A stretch of DNA of 52,680 nucleotides, from NCBI GenBank assembly GCA_029226065.1, contig JAQXXM010000018.1, positions 1 through 52,680 on the forward strand, given 5' to 3'. Made by a program: the position numbers and the translations under genes. Below, piece after piece: positions 22,832 to 35,639 of this stretch; positions within the stretch are counted from its first letter, which is position 1, and the number at the start of each line of letters is the position of its first letter. The notes under the pieces were generated by a model. That model made no database searches, was not told the origin of the DNA, and was given only the letters and a program-made list of their open reading frames with translations. This DNA is from Clostridiales bacterium (GTDB lineage: Bacteria > Bacillota > Clostridia > UBA1381).

Positions 22832-25800
22832 TCAGGCAACAAGTACCCATGATTGAAACCATTTTAAATATTTGTCCGCAAATTCCAGACTTATGGGCTG
22901 TCCGCTAAGCGTAGGATAGAACAGCACAAAAAGTCCAATTGCAATTAGTCCATATACCAAAGTACCGATAATGACTGCTTTTTTATTATTGGCACTGTCA
23001 TAAATTGTCTTGATGCTGTATACTATCATCAGCACAACAAATATCACGCACGGGAAATAATGGTATATATACGTTGTTCTCATCACAAGCATCCAGGGTA
23101 TATAGCTTGAAAAATAGCCTATGAGCAGGAACAACGGTACACTGTTTGAATCTGCCTTTATTTTATCATCAAACATCAATACTATAATAAACGTACCCAC
23201 TATTACTGTTGAATACAGCAATACACAGGGGAAAAGCCGTACAAGCTTTTCATTGTCTGCACCCACCAAATATGATACGGCACACAGCACTGCAAATATT
23301 GCCGAGTACACAACCGCATACGAATATTTATTTTTATTAAAGTAGTCTTTTTTCTTTAATGGTATAATTACAGCAAGTGCAATGTTATAAGCCACAGCAC
23401 CTATACCTATCCACCATACAGCAGGGTTACCGAATGCGCTTATTCCCTGTTTCATTCCGTTAGATAACGTATTTGCATAGTACCACATAGGTCTGTACAT
23501 TATGGGCCATTCATACCAGTGTGACGAGTAGGAATGAGTTGAGTTTACAACCGTTTTTCCGTGATACACAAGCATTGACTGTGCATTTGTAAATATCGTC
23601 TTTAGTCCCTCACCGCTCGGTGTAGCCATATACGGAATATAAGAAATAACGTATATTGCAAAGGGAACTGCTATAAACATAACACAGCAGAACAGCAATG
23701 TTATAACCGTATTACGCATAAAGCTGTTAATGACGTGTTTATGGCTTATTCCGTCTGTCTCGCCGTCAGGTGATAAAAGTGCATATCTGTATTCTCTGTA
23801 TCTGTAATACAGTGTTATAAAGAATATCAATGCAAGCCCGACACCTGCATATAGTCCTGTCCATTTTGATGCAACGGAAAGTCCGAAGAATATTCCCGAT
23901 ATGCCAAGCGGAACGAGAGTTTTATACAGCGGTGTGTCATAAAAGCTTTTTGTGTAATACTTATACATATAGTAATACATAAGCATAATAAACAGCGTCA
24001 CATACGTGTCTATAGTTGCAAGCCTTGTCTGAGTAAAGTGCATAAAATCAAATGTGTACAACACACAGCCCAGCACAGCAAGCCAACTGTATTTCATACA
24101 ACGCTTTGTCATAATATACACTATCGGCACCATTACAACACCTAAAAGCGTACCTACAAACCGCCATCCGAACGGCACCATACCGAAAATCATTATGCCT
24201 ATTCCCATAAGCACCTTGCCAAGCGGAGGATGTGTCCATTCATATACGCTCATACGGTGTAAAAACTCGTATGCTGTACGAGGATGATATATCTCGTCAA
24301 AATACGTACCCGACATATATGATTTATCTTTATCAAGGTAAGCCTGTTCGTCAAAGAGTGTATCTACTCCCTTATCAGCCGCATTAACAGGTGTGATAAC
24401 GTTTCCGTCACGGTCTATGAAGCACAGTTCCTTTAAATACACATCATTTGTTGGATCAGAAGAATTGTTAACACAATTTGTCGATACTTCAATGTATCTT
24501 GCCTTTATATCTTCATTCTCACGCATTGTCCAGGTAAATACCGAACCCTCCTCGATAATGTCATTATATACCGATACGCCGTTATTGTCAAGATATGAAA
24601 GTATAATATTTCTGTCCGTCTCAAGCTGACGGGCTCCAAGGAAGAACGCCGTTTGAGAAATTTCCTGTTCTTTCCCTAAATCTATATGCACCGTATTGCC
24701 GCACAGCGATGTTTCTGTTTGCGGCGCATACTTATCGCCAAGCTTGTAAAATGCCACACAGCCGTATATAACAGTTATTGCGAGCATTATACATATATCA
24801 ATTGCCGTTATTCTGACTGCCTTTTCGCTTAGTCTGAATGTGTAACGTTGACCTTTCTTTTGTGTGGACGATATCTTTTGTTTTGTGCTTGTTTTCGTGC
24901 ATACCTGAAAGCAAACCCACCCGAAAAGAATAATATTTATAATTGAAACTGCTATGATTACGGGCGAATTAAAGTATTTTGACGGATTACTCTCATATAC
25001 AAAAAGTACCCAGGCAATATTGAAAAACTGCGACAGCGAGAACAATCCGTATAAAATTGCATTTTTATTCGACGGAACTGATGCAAGTGCCATTATCAGC
25101 ATAAATATACCCGGGAATGCATAACGTTCATGCATTTTTGCCGACAGCATATATATACCGAAAAAGAGTATAAATGACGTCAGATAGTATCGGTCACTGC
25201 CTTTGCCTTTAAAAAAGACAACGCACGAGAACACAACAACCGCAACTATAAATACATAGCCGAGAACCGACACAAAGGGAGTCAACTCTGCCCAGTTAAG
25301 TCCCAACGCACCATATAAATTAAATGCGTTTACCGTCATATAATTGTATTGTCCAATTGTCGTGATGTACTGATCTATTATCACCCTTATGCCGTGGATA
25401 GGTGTATTACCGAACGGCATAAATGAAACAAGCATAAATACTAATGCACCAATTGCGCAAAGGACGGTTTTAATAAACTCTTTTTTATCGAATTTATTTT
25501 CCAGAAAATATTTATCAATAATTCCAAACACCAATACAGGTGCAAAGAACAATGCCTGAGGCTTTATCAGAATTGCCGCAGCAAATGCAAAAAATGACCA
25601 ATTCAATTTACGCTCCGATGCCAGATAAACTGCAAGCACACAGAAAAATCCCAAAATCGAATCAACCTGTCCCCACACGGCACTGTCGAGAATAACCGTA
25701 GGATTAAGCACCGCAAAAGCGGCTATAGCTGTTCCTGCAAGCTTTGAAAAATTCTTTGATGCAAGTCTGTATGCTAAATACCCCATTCCTAAATCTGCAA

Positions 25801-26167
25801 TAATTGCAGGAAGTTTCAGTACGAGCCATAGTACAGAGCCGTTAAGTGAAAAAACGTTTTTCACTGCACCTAATATATATAAAATATACAGATAGCCTGG
25901 AGGATAGTCGTGAAATCCGTCCGAAAGATAAAACTGTGACAGTCCGTTTTTAAACGCAATATCCGCCCAGCCTGTAAAACAGTTCATATCCGTTTCATGA
26001 CCTCTGTAGCATACGGCGGCAATCAGACGAATAACAAGAGCTAAAACAAGAACTATTGATATATATGTTTTATCTGATTTCTTTTTGAATAAATCACGTG
26101 CTGACGATACCCATGCCATGGTGCCGAAAATTCCGCTTATGATTATCATTCCGATTATTGCCGTCAC
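22832..26167 (-). CDS. Fused double GT-C glycosyltransferase with C-terminal PMT (GT39) domain
   Basis: A very long 1111-residue polytopic protein. The N-terminal half (about 1-425) is a GT-C-like module with ~10 membrane spans, acidic residues in the first outer loop (HETD, 57-60), DYPPG near 87-91 and a KPQ segment. A membrane span near 452-473 leads to an extracytoplasmic beta-rich segment (about 485-595), possibly a carbohydrate-binding-like fold. The C-terminal part (about 610-1111) is PMT-like, with FDEIYHPRTA at 623-632 and THPPLGK at 645-651. It probably moves sugars from polyprenyl phosphate donors outside the membrane. Acceptor unknown. It lies after a glucosaminidase and before fumarase. 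Confidence 0.85.
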   Translation of the reverse strand: MTAIIGMIIISGIFGTMAWVSSARDLFKKKSDKTYISIVLVLALVIRLIAAVCYRGHETDMNCFTGWADIAFKNGLSQFYLSDGFHDYPPGYLYILYILGAVKNVFSLNGSVLWLVLKLPAIIADLGMGYLAYRLASKNFSKLAGTAIAAFAVLNPTVILDSAVWGQVDSILGFFCVLAVYLASERKLNWSFFAFAAAILIKPQALFFAPVLVFGIIDKYFLENKFDKKEFIKTVLCAIGALVFMLVSFMPFGNTPIHGIRVIIDQYITTIGQYNYMTVNAFNLYGALGLNWAELTPFVSVLGYVFIVAVVVFSCVVFFKGKGSDRYYLTSFILFFGIYMLSAKMHERYAFPGIFMLIMALASVPSNKNAILYGLFSLSQFFNIAWVLFVYESNPSKYFNSPVIIAVSIINIILFGWVCFQVCTKTSTKQKISSTQKKGQRYTFRLSEKAVRITAIDICIMLAITVIYGCVAFYKLGDKYAPQTETSLCGNTVHIDLGKEQEISQTAFFLGARQLETDRNIILSYLDNNGVSVYNDIIEEGSVFTWTMRENEDIKARYIEVSTNCVNNSSDPTNDVYLKELCFIDRDGNVITPVNAADKGVDTLFDEQAYLDKDKSYMSGTYFDEIYHPRTAYEFLHRMSVYEWTHPPLGKVLMGIGIMIFGMVPFGWRFVGTLLGVVMVPIVYIMTKRCMKYSWLAVLGCVLYTFDFMHFTQTRLATIDTYVTLFIMLMYYYMYKYYTKSFYDTPLYKTLVPLGISGIFFGLSVASKWTGLYAGVGLALIFFITLYYRYREYRYALLSPDGETDGISHKHVINSFMRNTVITLLFCCVMFIAVPFAIYVISYIPYMATPSGEGLKTIFTNAQSMLVYHGKTVVNSTHSYSSHWYEWPIMYRPMWYYANTLSNGMKQGISAFGNPAVWWIGIGAVAYNIALAVIIPLKKKDYFNKNKYSYAVVYSAIFAVLCAVSYLVGADNEKLVRLFPCVLLYSTVIVGTFIIVLMFDDKIKADSNSVPLFLLIGYFSSYIPWMLVMRTTYIYHYFPCVIFVVLMIVYSIKTIYDSANNKKAVIIGTLVYGLIAIGLFVLFYPTLSGQPISLEFADKYLKWFQSWVLVA

Positions 26168-26195: not shown

Positions 26196-27965
26196 TTAAT
26201 GTCCAATAGTCATTGTGCTTGCTCCCTCTATTACAGGTGCACTCTCACCTGCATATACAGGCACTTCATAGCTTACCGATGCATTGCTAAACTGCGAGAA
26301 TAACCGTTCCATAATGGTCGACTGCGTTACTGCCCATGCAATATCTCCCGCATACAGGTGATTACCGGGATTATCAGGATTCCAACGCATTTTGTAGAGC
26401 GTGTTCTGTCTGCCTGATGATGCATTGATATAGTTCTTGCTTATCCATTCAGCACCGCCGTAAATTGCGGCTTCAGGTGCTGTCCAGCCCTTTGAATATG
26501 CCATTTTTGAGCCTGTGCCTACAGCGTCAGAGTCATAAGCGCCTATTCCAAACATATTATATACTCTTACACCGTTATAGTTGACACCTGTAGCAAGACG
26601 TGATGTGCCATAGCCCGTCTCAAGACACGCATGCGCTACAAGATACATCTCACTTATATTGTACCGTTTTGCCGCCTCTATAAATACATCGGCTTTACCG
26701 CTTAATATTCCTTTGCCGTCAAGGAATGATGCAAGCTTATCACGGCTTATACCATTATAGTGTGACAAATCCATAAACTGATACTTATATGAACCTGTCG
26801 AAAATTCGTTAGGATCAACATACAGTCTTGTACGGCTGTTATCCGCTGATTTAAGTCCGTTTCCGTCACTATATACAGGGTTTGTATTCATTTGAATACG
26901 TACCATTTCGTCAAGAGTGATGTCATACGTTACATACGTTACGCCGCCGGGTGCGGTATAGCTTTGACCTGTCTGGGGTGTAAATTCTGACTGCGATCCT
27001 TTTACGGTAATATTTATGCTGTCAAAAGCTCCATCCTTGCTTTTTGCAAATATTGTGACCTCGCCAGGACCTACTGCACGCACTAAGCCTGTCTGCGTTA
27101 CTGATGCAACGGAAGAATTCGTACTTGACCAGTCTATCAGTTTACTGCGTGCATTCTGCGGCGATACAGACGCAAAAAGCTGTAATAATTCACCCTTTGA
27201 TAATTCGTTTTTGTCTTTATTTACTATTGTAACCAATTCTGCCTTTATTGTCTTATTTATGACGTTTACAAAGCATTTTGCACTATATCCGCCATCAACT
27301 GTTGTTGCTACAACTTCTGCCATACCTGTTGACACTGCCTTTAAATGACCTGTCTGGTCTACCTCAACTATATTCTTGTCTTTTGAGTACCATTTTATAG
27401 TTGTGTTTGATGCATTTTCAGGGTATATTACGGGTATTACACGTACAGCGACATCTGTAGTATACATATTAAGCGAACTGTTTTCTATATAGAACCCCTC
27501 AACAGGCTGTATTATCTGCAAATACGCTTTTGACGTAAGACCTGTATTTGCTTCTGTTACGGTTATCTCCACACTGCCTGTTTTTTTTGCGGTTATATTT
27601 CCGTAACTGTCAATCTCGGCACACTCGGTATCGGATGATGCGAATGTGATTACACCTTCGCCTAAAACTATAGGATACAGCTTCGCATCAAGTTTTACTG
27701 TGGTAACCTCGCCTGTTTTTAGTTTTACCGTATTGTCATACCAGGAAAGCACCAACCCCGAATTGGGTACAGTTTCATCAAAAAAATATGAAATATCGTT
27801 TGGAAATCGAGTAGCAAGTCCGCCCTGCGCCTCTTTTTTATCAATTGAATCATTATGCGTTGTTATAGCTAAAACAAGAAATAAAATTACGCCAAAAACG
27901 ACACCGCCGTACGGCGCTATCTTTATCCATGGCAAATTCTTTATCTTGCTCACAAGCTCACGCAT
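26196..27965 (-). CDS. Membrane-anchored cell wall endo-beta-N-acetylglucosaminidase with three Big2 domains
   Basis: 589 residues. A signal anchor spans about 20-36. Three bacterial Ig-like (Big2) domains follow at about 75-152, 155-236 and 240-322, each ending in a G-x-A/V-E-V-T-type strand. A glucosaminidase domain (GH73 type) covers about 395-565, with candidate catalytic Glu449 in HACLETGYGTS and the NMFGIGAYD segment. Such enzymes cut the glycan strand between GlcNAc and MurNAc. The Big2 stalk would place the catalytic domain in the wall. It lies 15 bases after murT, suggesting joint expression with envelope genes. Confidence 0.9.
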   Translation of the reverse strand: MRELVSKIKNLPWIKIAPYGGVVFGVILFLVLAITTHNDSIDKKEAQGGLATRFPNDISYFFDETVPNSGLVLSWYDNTVKLKTGEVTTVKLDAKLYPIVLGEGVITFASSDTECAEIDSYGNITAKKTGSVEITVTEANTGLTSKAYLQIIQPVEGFYIENSSLNMYTTDVAVRVIPVIYPENASNTTIKWYSKDKNIVEVDQTGHLKAVSTGMAEVVATTVDGGYSAKCFVNVINKTIKAELVTIVNKDKNELSKGELLQLFASVSPQNARSKLIDWSSTNSSVASVTQTGLVRAVGPGEVTIFAKSKDGAFDSINITVKGSQSEFTPQTGQSYTAPGGVTYVTYDITLDEMVRIQMNTNPVYSDGNGLKSADNSRTRLYVDPNEFSTGSYKYQFMDLSHYNGISRDKLASFLDGKGILSGKADVFIEAAKRYNISEMYLVAHACLETGYGTSRLATGVNYNGVRVYNMFGIGAYDSDAVGTGSKMAYSKGWTAPEAAIYGGAEWISKNYINASSGRQNTLYKMRWNPDNPGNHLYAGDIAWAVTQSTIMERLFSQFSNASVSYEVPVYAGESAPVIEGASTMTIGH

Positions 27966-27980
27966 TTTTACACTTCCTTA

Positions 27981-29327
27981 TTATTGTTCCTTAACCTCAT
28001 CGGAATAATTTTTTTCAAGTTTCTTCAGAATTTCCTCTGTAGGATACAGAGCTGTATAATTTACCATAACATAAACTATTTCCGACTCTGTTTTCAGTGC
28101 AGAAACGATTGCATCTCTCATATTATCCGTCACTAAATCAACCGCCACATCAGCATATTTAAACCGCAAGGCTATATCGTAAAGACGTATTCCCGTTACC
28201 GAGAGTGTCTTGAGGTTTTCGTTTTTCAGCTTATCAAAGCCAACGTCCCATATCCATGACACATCCTCACCGTCATTAACACCGTCATTTATTGCAACTA
28301 TAACGTCCTTTTTACGTGTGTCGCTATTTACGGTTGTGATTGCCTGATTAAAGCCCGCAGGATTTTTGGAAAGGCTCAAAACGACAGGTTTATTAAACTT
28401 AAACTCCTGCATTCTGCCCGACTGCGGTTTGTAATTTGATAATATGTCAACGAAGTTATCAGTATTCTCACCTGCCGCCTGTAATGCCACATACGCCGCA
28501 GACAAGTTTAATATATTATAAAAGCCTTTATAATTCACTTCAATCTTTTCACCGTTAATCGAAAATCTGAGCGGTTGTGTTAGCTCTACGTCCTTTATTT
28601 CATAATCAGGGTTACGGCGTTTATGCGAGCATTGACTGCAGTAGAAATCACCTAATTGACTGTAGTGGTGATAATTATACGAAAGCTCCGTACCGCAAAC
28701 AGGACATAGATTGCCTTCTCTTATAGTTTCTTCCTCGTCTAAAACTTTTTCCGACACGCCGTAATATATAGCTTTTACGTCGTCTCTTGCTCCGAATTGC
28801 GAGCATACGGGGTCATCGGCGTTTAGTACAAGAGTTACACCTCTTGCAAGGTCTATTGCATCGTCAATCAGCTTAACCGTTCCCTCAATTTCGCCATAAC
28901 GGTCAAGCTGGTCCCGAAACAAATTTGTTATAACCATAATATGGGGTTTTATCTGTTTAAATATAATCCTTGCGTATGCCTCATCTATTTCAAGACAGGC
29001 ATAATCTGCATCAATTCTGCCCAACAAATCCGATGCTTCAATATATGCCGTTGCAACGCCTGAGAGCATATTCGCTCCTATGCGGTTACACATAACCTTG
29101 TAGCCCTTTGATTCAAGTGCTGAACGTATTACGTTGTTTGTTGTAGTCTTTCCGTTAGTGCCGCAGGTAACTATTATTTTCTTGCGGACACGATTATTCA
29201 TATCGCTTATTAGCGACGGACAAAGCTTGAGTGCCATAACACCCGGTGATGATGATGTACGTCTGTGAGTGATTTTTCCGACGAGAAAAACGAGTTTTCC
29301 TATCCATATTGCCGCTAATCGTTTCAT
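27981..29327 (-). CDS. murT: Lipid II isoglutaminyl synthase catalytic subunit MurT
   Basis: 448 residues from the chosen ATG 29327 (an ATG at 29357 overlaps the previous stop but lacks a ribosome site; AAAGGAAG precedes 29327). The Mur-ligase ATP loop GTNGKTT is at 56-62, and the MurT-specific zinc ribbon (CPVC at 208-211 and CSQC at 230-233) interrupts the central domain; a DUF1727 C-terminal domain follows. MurT activates the lipid II alpha-carboxyl of D-Glu for amidation by the glutaminase GatD. gatD normally sits next to murT; it is not adjacent here. Neighbours are the C11-like lipoprotein and the glucosaminidase. Confidence 0.93.
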   Translation of the reverse strand: MKRLAAIWIGKLVFLVGKITHRRTSSSPGVMALKLCPSLISDMNNRVRKKIIVTCGTNGKTTTNNVIRSALESKGYKVMCNRIGANMLSGVATAYIEASDLLGRIDADYACLEIDEAYARIIFKQIKPHIMVITNLFRDQLDRYGEIEGTVKLIDDAIDLARGVTLVLNADDPVCSQFGARDDVKAIYYGVSEKVLDEEETIREGNLCPVCGTELSYNYHHYSQLGDFYCSQCSHKRRNPDYEIKDVELTQPLRFSINGEKIEVNYKGFYNILNLSAAYVALQAAGENTDNFVDILSNYKPQSGRMQEFKFNKPVVLSLSKNPAGFNQAITTVNSDTRKKDVIVAINDGVNDGEDVSWIWDVGFDKLKNENLKTLSVTGIRLYDIALRFKYADVAVDLVTDNMRDAIVSALKTESEIVYVMVNYTALYPTEEILKKLEKNYSDEVKEQ

Positions 29328-29356: not shown

Positions 29357-31276
29357 TTATTTTGTAATCTGCATCTTCCCCTTAATTGCAGTTACATTTG
29401 TAGTATTACTCTCTGTTTTATTGCCATACACATCCTCGGCCGTGTACGATAACAGATACTCACCGTCTTCAAGAGATTTATCCTTAATATTAAGACCTCC
29501 GAACACAAGTGTCAGCTTCTTGCCTTGCAGATAACTGCCTTTTTCACCGCCATAAGTCTCATATACAGGTATTATACTGTCACCTGCAGACGGTATTTCC
29601 ATACTGCTGTCAAGAATACCTGTTTTGGAGTTATACCCCTCCCAAATTCCTACTATACTGTAACTTCTCTTTAAATCTTCAACCTTGGCAAGTACACGCA
29701 AGCTTGACAGCTTATCCTTATATATAATCGGGATTGAATACATTTCAGACTGACCATAATCGTTCACTTTATATACACTGACAGGAATTTTATTCAGTTC
29801 CGTCACCTTGTTGTTCAGTTTGTACTCGTATGTGTTTGCGATGTTGCTGTAGTATGTGTCATTGTCGTGTCGAAGGAAAAGATACATTCCTGTCTCCTCA
29901 TCATACTTATACAGGTTTACACCCGTCATTGCAATAACATCGGGATTATCGACACTTAAAAGATATTTTCCCGATAAATCAGGCTCGGCAGTCATTGTGT
30001 TGTTTGCCATCGCAGACTGATATATCTCATAGCTCGGTGTAGCCTTATAATCAGCCGTTCTGTTTTCAATAGCATCGTCTGCCATTATTTTGTCTATAAA
30101 TTCCTTGTAGCCCGAGCTTGTACAAAGCTTTTTATATTCGTTAATCTCCTGAGTGTCTCGCGCCTTTGGATAATATACGCTTATTCCGCACGAGTCATCA
30201 TGCAACTCCCCTGCAATTTTGTAAATAACGGCACGTGATATTGTTTTTTCAATACGTGCATAATTTGAGCGTACTGCACTGTAGCCTGCATTCTGAAACG
30301 ATTTCAAATCCACCAGATCGGAGTATCCCTCCCACGGCGAATTTGCACCAACAAAATGTGCCAAATTAATACGTGCCGTCATAGAACGAAGCTTATCAAT
30401 GTCCTCGCAATCTGCCGCCAAGCCGTGTGCAAGAGTGTCAAAGTCCTGGGCTAAACTTGTAATATCCGACAGGTCTATAACAGACATTATCATAAGTTCC
30501 TGCATTTGATCCGATGCATTCTCGTATGCACTGTCGCATATAATCTGTCCTGCCTGTGCCGCACCTACATTGGGGTTTTCGGATATATATTCAAGGAGCT
30601 TTCTGTAATCCCAGCCCGATTCGGGCATAATATCTTCAGCTGCAACCATATAGTCCGCATACGGTACAAGCGTTGTTGCAACATCAAGATTTGCCATCAT
30701 ACCTGTATCAAAGCCAATCAAATCGAGCTTTGTCTCTGTAGAGGCAAGTCCCGACGCAATTTCGGATGGCGTTAGTGAATTGTACTCATTTGATGCATCG
30801 TGAGCCACACCGCTTAATGGACCGCCGCTCTCGCCCCATATTATTGAAATATATTTGTCTGCAGGATACTTCTCAATTGTTCGGTTTAAAAAATCTGCAT
30901 ACGTTTTGGCATCACCCATATTTTTTACACCTGTTTCGTATATTTCACGCAGACCGTTTTTCTGTACGGCAAAATCCTGAATTTTATCGGATTTAATTCC
31001 GTCTATACCCCACTTTTCGTCTCCGTTTATCTCAACAACAACATTGATGTTTTTAGGTAAATCATACGAAAGCGAGTTAAGAACATCTGCTGCACGTGTA
31101 TAGTTTTCGTCAAGTGATGATGCACTCATATAAAGCATAACCGTCCAGCTGTCGCCTGTCGATTCTCTGCGTCTTACTTCCTTTTCAACAATTAAAGAGT
31201 CTTTGCTGCACCCACAGACGGCTGTAAAAAGCATAACACATAAGAGTACGCCAAAAATCCTGATTTTCTTTTTCAT
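29357..31276 (-). CDS. C11 (clostripain)-like lipoprotein with substituted catalytic residues
   Basis: 639 residues from ATG 31276, where a signal peptide begins (an ATG at 31324 adds 16 hydrophilic residues). A lipobox-like VCGC precedes the likely lipidated Cys23. Residues about 40-380 align by eye with the clostripain C11 fold: WTVMLYMSASSLDE, the strand ending IIWGESGG, and LDLIGFDTGMM. In active members the corresponding boxes are W-D-H-G-G-G and F-D-A-C-L-M; here the His position is Glu149 and the Cys position Gly192. It therefore looks like a secreted pseudo-protease. The C-terminal ~230 residues are beta-rich and unassigned. First gene of the envelope block. Confidence 0.82.
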   Translation of the reverse strand: MKKKIRIFGVLLCVMLFTAVCGCSKDSLIVEKEVRRRESTGDSWTVMLYMSASSLDENYTRAADVLNSLSYDLPKNINVVVEINGDEKWGIDGIKSDKIQDFAVQKNGLREIYETGVKNMGDAKTYADFLNRTIEKYPADKYISIIWGESGGPLSGVAHDASNEYNSLTPSEIASGLASTETKLDLIGFDTGMMANLDVATTLVPYADYMVAAEDIMPESGWDYRKLLEYISENPNVGAAQAGQIICDSAYENASDQMQELMIMSVIDLSDITSLAQDFDTLAHGLAADCEDIDKLRSMTARINLAHFVGANSPWEGYSDLVDLKSFQNAGYSAVRSNYARIEKTISRAVIYKIAGELHDDSCGISVYYPKARDTQEINEYKKLCTSSGYKEFIDKIMADDAIENRTADYKATPSYEIYQSAMANNTMTAEPDLSGKYLLSVDNPDVIAMTGVNLYKYDEETGMYLFLRHDNDTYYSNIANTYEYKLNNKVTELNKIPVSVYKVNDYGQSEMYSIPIIYKDKLSSLRVLAKVEDLKRSYSIVGIWEGYNSKTGILDSSMEIPSAGDSIIPVYETYGGEKGSYLQGKKLTLVFGGLNIKDKSLEDGEYLLSYTAEDVYGNKTESNTTNVTAIKGKMQITK

Positions 31277-31347: not shown

Positions 31348-31394
31348 ACAAGGGCGATGCCATAACAGTTACCGCTATAGCAAAACGCCCTCAC
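31348..31394 (-). terminator. Rho-independent terminator after the ferredoxin gene
   Basis: Minus strand: AGGGCG pairs with CGCCCT, with a second inner stem (TGCTATAGC against GTTATGGCA with G-U pairs), followed by TGTTTTTTTC. It begins about a dozen bases after the ferredoxin stop and insulates the C11-like gene. Confidence 0.85.
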
Positions 31395-31405
31395 ATGATA
31401 TTAAA

Positions 31406-31579
31406 TCATTCCGCAGCCGGTGCGCCAACCGGGCAAGCAGCAGCACAAGCGCCGCACTCTATGCAAGTATCTGCATCGATTACGTATGCTGCATCGCCTT
31501 CTGATATAGCATCAACCGGACAGTCTGCAGCACAAGCACCGCAGCTTATACATGTATCCGCATCAATTTTATAAGCCAT
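31406..31579 (-). CDS. Small 2[4Fe-4S] ferredoxin
   Basis: A 57-residue low-potential electron carrier of the clostridial type. Two classical cluster motifs are visible: C-I-S-C-G-A-C-A-A-D-C-P at residues 10-21 and C-I-E-C-G-A-C-A-A-A-C-P at 39-50. The two halves are near duplicates (YKIDADTC and YVIDADTC). A perfect AGGAGG lies just upstream of ATG 31579. Own promoter at 31627-31655 and own terminator make it monocistronic. Likely partners are oxidoreductases or hydrogenases elsewhere in the genome. Confidence 0.97.
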   Translation of the reverse strand: MAYKIDADTCISCGACAADCPVDAISEGDAAYVIDADTCIECGACAAACPVGAPAAE

Positions 31580-31712: not shown

Positions 31713-32684
31713 TTACGTATTTTGTTCCACGTCAATCTTTGGTGTTGACGGTTTTTTCTTCCTGTTGCGTGTCCGTTTATGCTTTTGTGCCTGTTCATTA
31801 CTCTGATCGTTATTTGTATCACCATCAGAAACAGGCTCCTGAATTTCCGTCGTTTTCTTCTGCGGTTTGCCATCGTCAGTATCAACCTCAACCTCGTTTA
31901 CCGAATACTCTCGCATTGTAATTTCATTGCCTGTCTCAAACCGTACGCTGATGCGTCCTTTTAAGAGCGACACATACGATATTGTACCTTTGCCGTCGGG
32001 CGTATCTACCACTGTTCCGACAGACGGGGTTTCGCTGTTCAAAGCTTCATACGTGTCCTGCTCATATTTCAGACAGCACATCAATCTTCCGCAAGCACCC
32101 GATATTTTTGTAGGATTTAGAGATAAGCCCTGCTCCTTTGCCATTTTGATTGACACAGGCACAAATTCGTCTAAAAATTTTGAACAGCACAAGTCCCTGC
32201 CGCACATACCGACCGAGCCTAATGTTTTCGACTCATCTCTTACGCCGATTTGCCTTAACTCTATTCTTGTCTTAAATACAGATGCCAGGTCTTTTACAAG
32301 ATCTCTGAAATCCACTCTGCCGTCAGACGTAAAATAGAACAGTATCTTGTTGCCGTCAAAAGTATACTCAACCTCAACAAGCTTCATACTTAGTCCGTGC
32401 TGCTGGATTTTTTCAAGGCATATTTTGTATGCTTCCTTTTCTTTTTCCTTGTTTTCGTTATGTCTTTTTGTGTCCTCATCAGTAGCAACTCTGACTACAC
32501 CCTTCAAGGGCTTTTTTATAACAGACTCCTCTACCTCTTTAACACCCTGCATTACATTGCCGTATTCAATACCTCGGCTTGTCTCAACTATGACATTATC
32601 GCCTCGGCTTATGTCTATTCCCTGCGGATCAAAATAGTATATCTTACCTGATGGTTTGAAACGCACTCCTATGATTTTTACCAT
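31713..32684 (-). CDS. ricT: RicT/YaaT PSP1-domain Fe-S protein
   Basis: 323 residues. The PSP1 domain (about 1-210) contains the six conserved cysteines of RicT: C161, C166, C167 (CGRDLCC) and C198, C203, C204 (CGRLMCC). In Bacillus, RicA-RicF-RicT carries [4Fe-4S] clusters and promotes RNase Y-dependent mRNA maturation and development including sporulation. The C-terminal ~80 residues are charged and then basic (HKRTRNRKKKPS), likely disordered. It starts directly at the stop of the preceding small membrane-protein gene, with no gap. The usual tmk-holB neighbours are absent. Confidence 0.94.
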   Translation of the reverse strand: MVKIIGVRFKPSGKIYYFDPQGIDISRGDNVIVETSRGIEYGNVMQGVKEVEESVIKKPLKGVVRVATDEDTKRHNENKEKEKEAYKICLEKIQQHGLSMKLVEVEYTFDGNKILFYFTSDGRVDFRDLVKDLASVFKTRIELRQIGVRDESKTLGSVGMCGRDLCCSKFLDEFVPVSIKMAKEQGLSLNPTKISGACGRLMCCLKYEQDTYEALNSETPSVGTVVDTPDGKGTISYVSLLKGRISVRFETGNEITMREYSVNEVEVDTDDGKPQKKTTEIQEPVSDGDTNNDQSNEQAQKHKRTRNRKKKPSTPKIDVEQNT

Positions 32685-33149
32685 TTATTTGTTCCTTTCT
32701 TTCTCTATACGCCGTCTCATTTTCTCTGTCGGCTCAACAGCAACCGTTGTCAATACACCGTTGCCGTATTTATATTCAATATATAAAGTTTTTTTAGTGC
32801 TTACAATTCTTACACGCATATTATGTACGGGCTTTGCAAAGTCTTTGGGCTTTGAGCCGTAGTATACACGTTCTATATCAGTACAGGCAAATTCAAATTC
32901 CTTGTTTCGTTTACCGATCATTCTGTTGATACGCAGTCTGCCGTTTTTAAGTGAATATGTAAACCGTGACGTATAATGTGTCAAGACAAAGTAACCGTAT
33001 ACGCAAAATATCAACACAGATATTATTCCGCCAATGAACGCATATTCATTAAAAAGCGACACCATTGCGGCACACATTATATATAAAATGGCAGACACTG
33101 CTATTACAAAACAAAATTCTTTTCCGCCCGAAGTATGTTCTTCTGTCAT
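32685..33149 (-). CDS. Small membrane protein with PH-like cytoplasmic domain, function unknown
   Basis: 154 residues. Two membrane spans (about 11-32 and 37-55) are followed by a basic, strand-rich segment (about 60-140: YSLKNGRLRINRMIGKRNKEFEFACTDIERVYYG) that resembles bacterial PH-like domains. No catalytic motif is seen. It is the first gene of the operon driven by the promoter at 33193-33221 and its stop abuts the ricT start, so the two are co-expressed and perhaps translationally coupled. A link to RicT is inferred from position only. Confidence 0.75.
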   Translation of the reverse strand: MTEEHTSGGKEFCFVIAVSAILYIMCAAMVSLFNEYAFIGGIISVLIFCVYGYFVLTHYTSRFTYSLKNGRLRINRMIGKRNKEFEFACTDIERVYYGSKPKDFAKPVHNMRVRIVSTKKTLYIEYKYGNGVLTTVAVEPTEKMRRRIEKERNK

Positions 33150-34283: not shown

Positions 34284-35639
34284 TTAATTCAAAAAATCAT
34301 ATACTGTCTTTGACAAATCCGTAAACTTGACTATTTGTCCGTAGGCATTTTCCAAGCTGTCACCGATTATTACAAGTATGTATGTACCGCTCGGTGCATA
34401 CACAATTGCCGCATCACCCTGCATATAATCAAGCTCTCCCGTTTTATTGGCAACTGTCACTCCATCAGGCACTCCTGACGGAATTTTTTGGACGTGTTGC
34501 TGTTGTTTAAGCAGTGACAGTATTTTCCCCGACATTTCTTCATTTACAATATCGCCGTTAATGATACGTCTTAAATACATTCCGCAGTCATTTACCGATG
34601 TAAAGTTGTAGTTTTTATGACTACCCTGATAAAATTGTCCTGTATCAATAAAACCTGCGACATTTGCAACCTTTGTAACCTCCTGCATACCTCTTGAATA
34701 ACTGCCGCCTATTGATTTTGCGAGATATTTCCACGCATCGTTGTCGCTGTATATAATCATTTTGTACAATTCATTATCAATTGTTTCAGTTTCTGCCATT
34801 ACGCCGTCTGCAATTTTCTGATACACCGTCTGTGCCACAAAAAGCTTTATAAGGCTTGCCGAATATACCTGGTGGCTGTTTATCGAAATTGTTTTGCCTG
34901 TATTTATATCCTCAAAATACAGCGACCAATCCCCCTGCCATGCAGACATTTTCTCGTTTAGCGTTGTTTCAAGAACTGCATAATCAGGTATTTTTATTTT
35001 AAGTCTTTCCGACGGCTCAAGATACATCGAAATAAGCTTTACCGCCTCACCCCTTGTAAGTATTTTATCAGGCTCATACGCTAAAGCTATGCTTTTATCA
35101 AGTGTTATACCGAGGTTATACATCATAATCACTTCATCTGCATATTTATACATTTCCTCATCAGGCAAAAACTCGGCATTGTTTAAAAGCTCTCCGTCTT
35201 TTGCAAGAGATGATATTGAAAATGCCATCTGCTCACGGCTTACAGGCTCACTGCCACAGGGCATAGACTCATCCCACAATTTATACTTTATTGCCCTTTT
35301 TATGTAGTTTTCACTCTGGTTGGGGTTATAGTGAGGGAAGGAAATATCTATTCCCTTTTTATCTTCATACAGGTTCACTACAGCGTATGCCGCCTCACAC
35401 GCTGAAAATGGCTCATCCACGCCGTATTTTCCGTCTATTCCGCCAATTATAATGCCTTTTTCATACAAAGCGATTATATCTGCGCTGTTTTCCATATCAA
35501 CGTCGCTCCATACAGGGAACAACGTCTCATCGTCCTTTTTTGTACTTTGCGGTATAATGGCAGTTATTCCTGCAAATATTACCGCTAAAATTGCCAGAAA
35601 TCTGAAAAATACTGCTGTACTGTGCCTCACTGTTTTCAT
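34284..35639 (-). CDS. SLH-domain serine hydrolase, class A beta-lactamase-like
   Basis: 451 residues. A signal anchor (about 11-30) is followed by S-layer homology repeats (about 45-95, 105-150, 158-210) and a class A beta-lactamase/transpeptidase-fold domain (about 225-450). Serine active-site motifs are intact: SLIK at 262-265, SDN at 298-300, KTG at 399-401. SLH repeats would hold it on secondary wall polymers. It may be a D-Ala-D-Ala hydrolase or an esterase rather than a resistance enzyme; I could not find a clear general-base Glu as in true class A enzymes. Its ATG overlaps the recD2 stop (ATGA). Confidence 0.87.
   Translation of the reverse strand: MKTVRHSTAVFFRFLAILAVIFAGITAIIPQSTKKDDETLFPVWSDVDMENSADIIALYEKGIIIGGIDGKYGVDEPFSACEAAYAVVNLYEDKKGIDISFPHYNPNQSENYIKRAIKYKLWDESMPCGSEPVSREQMAFSISSLAKDGELLNNAEFLPDEEMYKYADEVIMMYNLGITLDKSIALAYEPDKILTRGEAVKLISMYLEPSERLKIKIPDYAVLETTLNEKMSAWQGDWSLYFEDINTGKTISINSHQVYSASLIKLFVAQTVYQKIADGVMAETETIDNELYKMIIYSDNDAWKYLAKSIGGSYSRGMQEVTKVANVAGFIDTGQFYQGSHKNYNFTSVNDCGMYLRRIINGDIVNEEMSGKILSLLKQQQHVQKIPSGVPDGVTVANKTGELDYMQGDAAIVYAPSGTYILVIIGDSLENAYGQIVKFTDLSKTVYDFLN

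Follow-up and report, generated by a model that had tools for sequence, protein, structure and literature searches.

The closest described systems to the protein discussed here are clostripain and PmC11 (MEROPS family C11, clan CD; PDB 9cip and 3uws). Asp177 of PmC11 is the primary S1 residue (PMC4850288), and a Cys-to-Ser exchange (C136S) abolishes the function of PNT1, also a C11 peptidase (PMC4850289). Pseudoproteases are well described among the caspase relatives: cyanobacterial pseudo-orthocaspases, also of clan CD, have both dyad residues replaced, commonly with Ser at the Cys position, and are kept as clades, often as the sole family member of their genome (PMC6426788), and metacaspase 4 of Trypanosoma brucei is a pseudopeptidase, as cited in PMC4850289. 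In searches of the open-access literature, we found no account of an entire clade of inactive C11 proteins or of an inactive clostripain.

Here, we describe a predicted C11 lipoprotein that is encoded in the window (the whole stretch of 52,680 nucleotides that was analysed) and belongs to such a clade. It has the fold in common with clostripain and PmC11 over about 360 residues, and the positions of the catalytic His, the catalytic Cys and the S1 Asp are in the same places; however, both catalytic residues are replaced, there is no basic residue around the activation cleavage site, and a lipobox and a C-terminal beta domain are added beyond the superposed part. Among described clan CD proteins that are kept although the dyad is lost, the pseudo-orthocaspases are the nearest analogue, but they have a caspase-type p20, mostly Tyr-Ser dyads, probably several origins and a mainly cyanobacterial distribution (PMC6426788). 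T. brucei metacaspase 4, in the account cited in PMC4850289, resembles the clade in being a pseudopeptidase of clan CD that has a biological role, yet it is a eukaryotic metacaspase and not a C11 protein.

A C11 fold without its catalytic dyad

The gene lies at 29357..31276 on the minus strand, as are all the features described below, and encodes 639 residues. The protein is predicted from its sequence to be a lipidated lipoprotein located at the envelope: residues 1–23 (31208..31276) form a signal peptide and lipobox with the motif V-C-G-C, in which the lipobox Cys, present in all 35 clade members, is C21 by alignment while C23 is likelier by motif. Residues 40–408 (30053..31159) make up the C11 domain, as defined by Pfam, an AlphaFold model and the match to clostripain. 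Peptidase_C11 (PF03415) matches residues 75–377 with an E-value of 1.8e-35 and 123.6 bits against a cut-off of 25.8. The AlphaFold2 model, built from 54 aligned sequences, has a mean pLDDT of 91.6 and a pTM of 0.89, and its best match among solved structures is clostripain (9cip; Z 29.1, 2.2 Å over 359 residues, model range 40–408). The remaining residues 409–639 (29360..30052) form a beta-rich C-terminal domain of about 230 residues, a sandwich with an insert that is weakly Ig/FnIII-like (Z at most 9.7 over 86 residues) and is also present in dyad-intact relatives. We assign this domain to no named family on such weak matches, and the lack of a better match is not proof of a new fold. An NCBIfam match to phosphoribosylanthranilate isomerase, well under its cut-off, was disregarded.

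What remains of the active site? The WDHGGG and FDACLM columns of the family are the His and Cys boxes of clostripain in a profile alignment to the PDB chains, and family alignments place Glu149 (codon 30830..30832) and Gly192 (30701..30703) of the window protein on the His and Cys of clostripain and PmC11, the two boxes reading WGESGG and FDTGMM. These positions are His and Cys in 50/50 intact lipoprotein relatives, in contrast to 11/35 and 2/35 clade members. The original prediction, made from the DNA letters, had read both replacements within a C11 fold recognisable over about 340 residues; the sequence and family alignments confirm the replacements, the profile and structure matches uphold the fold, and alignment puts Glu149 and Gly192 at the catalytic positions of a C11 fold that is intact in the structural model. 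The window protein is thus a C11 family member by fold and profile and not a C11 peptidase by the defining dyad. The acidic S1 residue is retained as Asp190 (30707..30709), the equivalent of PmC11 Asp177. The Lys or Arg of activation cleavage is absent: Asn163 stands at the equivalent of PmC11 Lys147 (14 residues past the His position, by eye), and reading residues 150–182 by eye revealed no Lys or Arg. Following from what is known of these families, the window protein would be secreted by way of its lipoprotein signal and would lack cysteine-protease catalysis.

The 35-member clade was also searched for a conserved His and Cys at other places of the fold, the observation that the original prediction had named as speaking against it, and no such pair was found. 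Outside the dyad, the highest conservation of any His column is 13/35, and those Cys columns that are conserved (21 in the lipobox, 51 and 247) are common in dyad-intact relatives too; we therefore reject a relocated catalytic dyad.

A single clade of dyad-broken proteins

Searching 101 genomes (that of the window and those of its relatives) gave full-length orthologues in 32, all within the window's family; 84,980 species genomes were also scanned with short patterns, from which the best 80 loci were kept, partly from the same genomes. Most of the genomes are incomplete metagenome-assembled genomes (MAGs). The 35 orthologues, including that of the window, all belong to a single family of uncultured Clostridia, and the dyad is broken in every one of them; none carries both His and Cys, whereas the C11 proteins examined outside the clade have both in 66 of 66. 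The dyad-broken set forms a single clade in a tree computed with both dyad columns masked; in a more careful tree of 77 rows, also with the dyad columns masked, the split has a support of 100/99 and one change is found in 100% of 200 bootstraps. The loss of the dyad occurred once, at the base of the clade. Named members include Candidatus Ornithomonoglobus, Lachnospiraceae bacterium MD329 (L100), uncultured Oscillospiraceae and Ruminococcus, among others, although the NCBI names are rough; most are MAGs, many of them from animal guts.

Within the clade, the Cys position holds Ser in 22 members, Gly in five, Pro in three, Cys in two, Ala in two and Asn in one. The His position is still His in 11 of the 35, while the other 24 have A, Q, E, D, S or G there; each of the 11 that retain the His, L082 among them, has Ser in place of the Cys. 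The tree requires four state changes at the His position and three at the Cys position, a count that is blind to gain versus loss. The simplest reading is that Cys changed to Ser first and that His was lost later. Together with the proteins outside the clade, this gives a natural series of His-Cys, then His-Ser, then both lost, which shows how a bacterial secreted protease could turn into a binding protein.

A few members depart from this series. Cys occurs without His in L039 (Ser/Cys) and L048 (Gln/Cys); the former (L039:4734-6659, minus strand) has Cys at the nucleophile and Ser at the His position and is nested among His-Ser members, so that the Cys is back without its partner. Such a pattern is as expected once the two positions are no longer constrained jointly. 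The lost His of L058 and L059 is accompanied by a Cys one position past the catalytic place.

The dyad-intact C11 lipoproteins, found in Lachnospiraceae, Oscillospiraceae, Coriobacteriia and Treponema (examples are L118 of Flavonifractor, L125, L113 and L138), mostly have the same architecture of lipobox, C11 and C-terminal beta domain at 24–30% identity. Unlike the clade, all have W[DN]HG.G and Cys192, most have Glu217, and none was found beside ricT in the flanking DNA examined, some of the contigs being short. One dyad-intact C11, from Oscillibacter valericigenes An907 (L147:8893-9516), is broken by a stop codon in the sequence examined.

Taking the positions that are at least 90% conserved among 50 dyad-intact lipoprotein relatives, we find Asp190, Asp160, Asp323, Tyr49, Met120, Phe129, Leu168 and Gly364 in 35/35 clade members, and Gly150 and Gly152 in 33–34/35, the window protein itself having Ser150; 15 columns are invariant. 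In contrast, Glu217, present in 92% of the intact lipoprotein relatives, is lost in 35/35, with Met in 20 and Gln in eight instead. Counted from the Cys, this position corresponds to Thr204 in the S1 loop of PmC11, and its complete loss indicates that the S1 pocket has changed. Leu264 and Trp491 are also lost in the clade.

Searches with PF03415 label the clade proteins as peptidases, which calls for caution: inventories of proteases that rely on counting C11 proteins in gut MAGs are wrong for the pseudo-C11 family.

Gene neighbourhood and possible roles

Upstream, the surroundings are conserved. A gene for a 57-residue 2x[4Fe-4S] ferredoxin (31406..31579) lies immediately upstream in 29/29 loci of a second orthologue set, and ricT (PSP1/YaaT; 31713..32684) adjoins in 30 of 31 orthologue loci as well as in the window, the exception being G027/L055, where ricT is on another contig. 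The gap between the ferredoxin and pseudo-C11 genes contains an intrinsic terminator (31350..31392; -25.3 kcal/mol, z -5.3). Similar hairpins occur at most clade loci; at about six they are absent, weak or unresolved, in some cases because the called start overlaps the ferredoxin gene. A terminator at this point argues that the genes have a location but no transcript in common, and as it separates the transcription units at most loci we infer no function from the linkage to ricT and ferredoxin. Presence of the gene is patchy: many genomes of the family lack it, so that its role is dispensable. The species L180, L182 and L184, for instance, have ricT, ferredoxin and then an amidohydrolase-like gene, with no C11 there.

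What might a C11 protein do without its dyad? We consider it likely that the window protein is a maintained surface pseudopeptidase whose C11 cleft binds a ligand without cutting it. That it is non-catalytic and maintained seems to us very probable, and that ligand binding takes place through the cleft at the surface is, on balance, plausible. The protease fold would have lost catalysis at the base of the clade and then been kept for a non-catalytic role, in which the old substrate cleft, with the S1 residue Asp190 kept and the rest of the specificity loop changed, may bind, on the outer side of the membrane, a peptide or a segment of a protein. The lipid anchor and the Ig-like C-terminal domain would hold the protein at the envelope, and the latter might serve as a second binding face or a spacer. 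The cleft would still bind something because Asp190 persists whereas the catalytic residues and one S1 wall have changed; Asp190 may instead be retained for folding. A wider and more tentative possibility is that these proteins are non-catalytic C11 receptors on gut Clostridia, with the cleft as a peptide-binding sensor or scaffold, and that one genus has wired its receptor into peptidoglycan amidation and the expression of a glucosaminidase.

The downstream genes bear on a role that the original prediction had suggested, that of an envelope-assembly scaffold or sensor, here tied to MurT/GatD and the glucosaminidase. It had placed the lipoprotein first in an operon with murT, a glucosaminidase and a glycosyltransferase, and this operon stands as a tight run of genes: the terminator lies upstream, and only 29 bp separate the gene from murT (27981..29327), which is followed by a SagB-like glucosaminidase with Big_2 domains (26196..27965) and a PMT/GT87 glycosyltransferase. 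The pseudo-C11 gene directly precedes murT, with the glucosaminidase further downstream, in 15/15 loci of the window's genus, most having gatD or a gene-sized gap between the two, and a lipoprotein location would be compatible with such a role. The synteny with murT that it sought across dyad-less homologues does not extend beyond this genus, however, as the orthologues of other genera are followed by cca, an acyltransferase, an FMN reductase, purF or alaS and not by murT; the murT link is a genus-level arrangement and not a property of the pseudo-C11 family. Moreover, the gatD of the window's genome is on another contig, outside the cluster, and MurT/GatD are cytoplasmic whereas the lipoprotein would be outside, so that we regard a role tied to MurT/GatD as unlikely.

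Inactive clan CD members can serve as decoys or regulators of active ones, and the protein might play this part towards an active C11 paralogue of its own cell. Eight of the 24 pseudo-C11 genomes do carry another C11, dyad-intact where examined, but the other 16 do not, including the window's (91% complete) and others that are 95–99% complete, which makes a decoy for the cell's own active paralogue quite improbable; the client could be a protease of another family. We see only a slim chance that enzymatic activity persists through a new nucleophile, be it Ser192 paired with His149 or other residues: weak Ser-based activity is conceivable in the 11 members that have this pair, but Glu and Gly occupy the two positions in the window protein, 24/35 members have lost the His, no other His column takes its place, and the C136S variant of PNT1 is non-functional (PMC4850289). 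The loss of both catalytic residues and the patchy presence could also be taken as signs of a decaying gene. This reading has next to no probability and is refuted by selection data and open frames: dN/dS is 0.04–0.15 (orthologue pairs with dS below 2 and more than 60% identity), the reading frame is open in every orthologue, and the invariant columns and the high-confidence model point the same way. The earlier view of a maintained non-enzymatic fold is thereby borne out, and a protein that has lost its catalytic residues with fold and selection kept is what is called a pseudopeptidase.

Several other genes of the locus deserve mention. No gatD adjoins murT in the window (27981-29327, L159), nor in L033, and the sole GATase_3 match of the window's genome, a gatD-like gene, is found on contig C113, where guaA and an asparagine-synthase-like gene flank it; in L035, gatD is confirmed between murT and the glucosaminidase. 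At 22832-26167, a protein of 1111 residues combines GT87-like and PMT-like (protein O-mannosyltransferase) membrane glycosyltransferase parts in one chain. Directly before ricT in much of the family is a gene for a 154-residue protein (32685-33149 in the window) that has no Pfam match and, by eye, likely has two membrane helices. Further upstream, the product of 34284-35639 has a class A beta-lactamase-like domain that scores far under true beta-lactamase cut-offs, and its N-terminal region resembles S-layer homology repeats.
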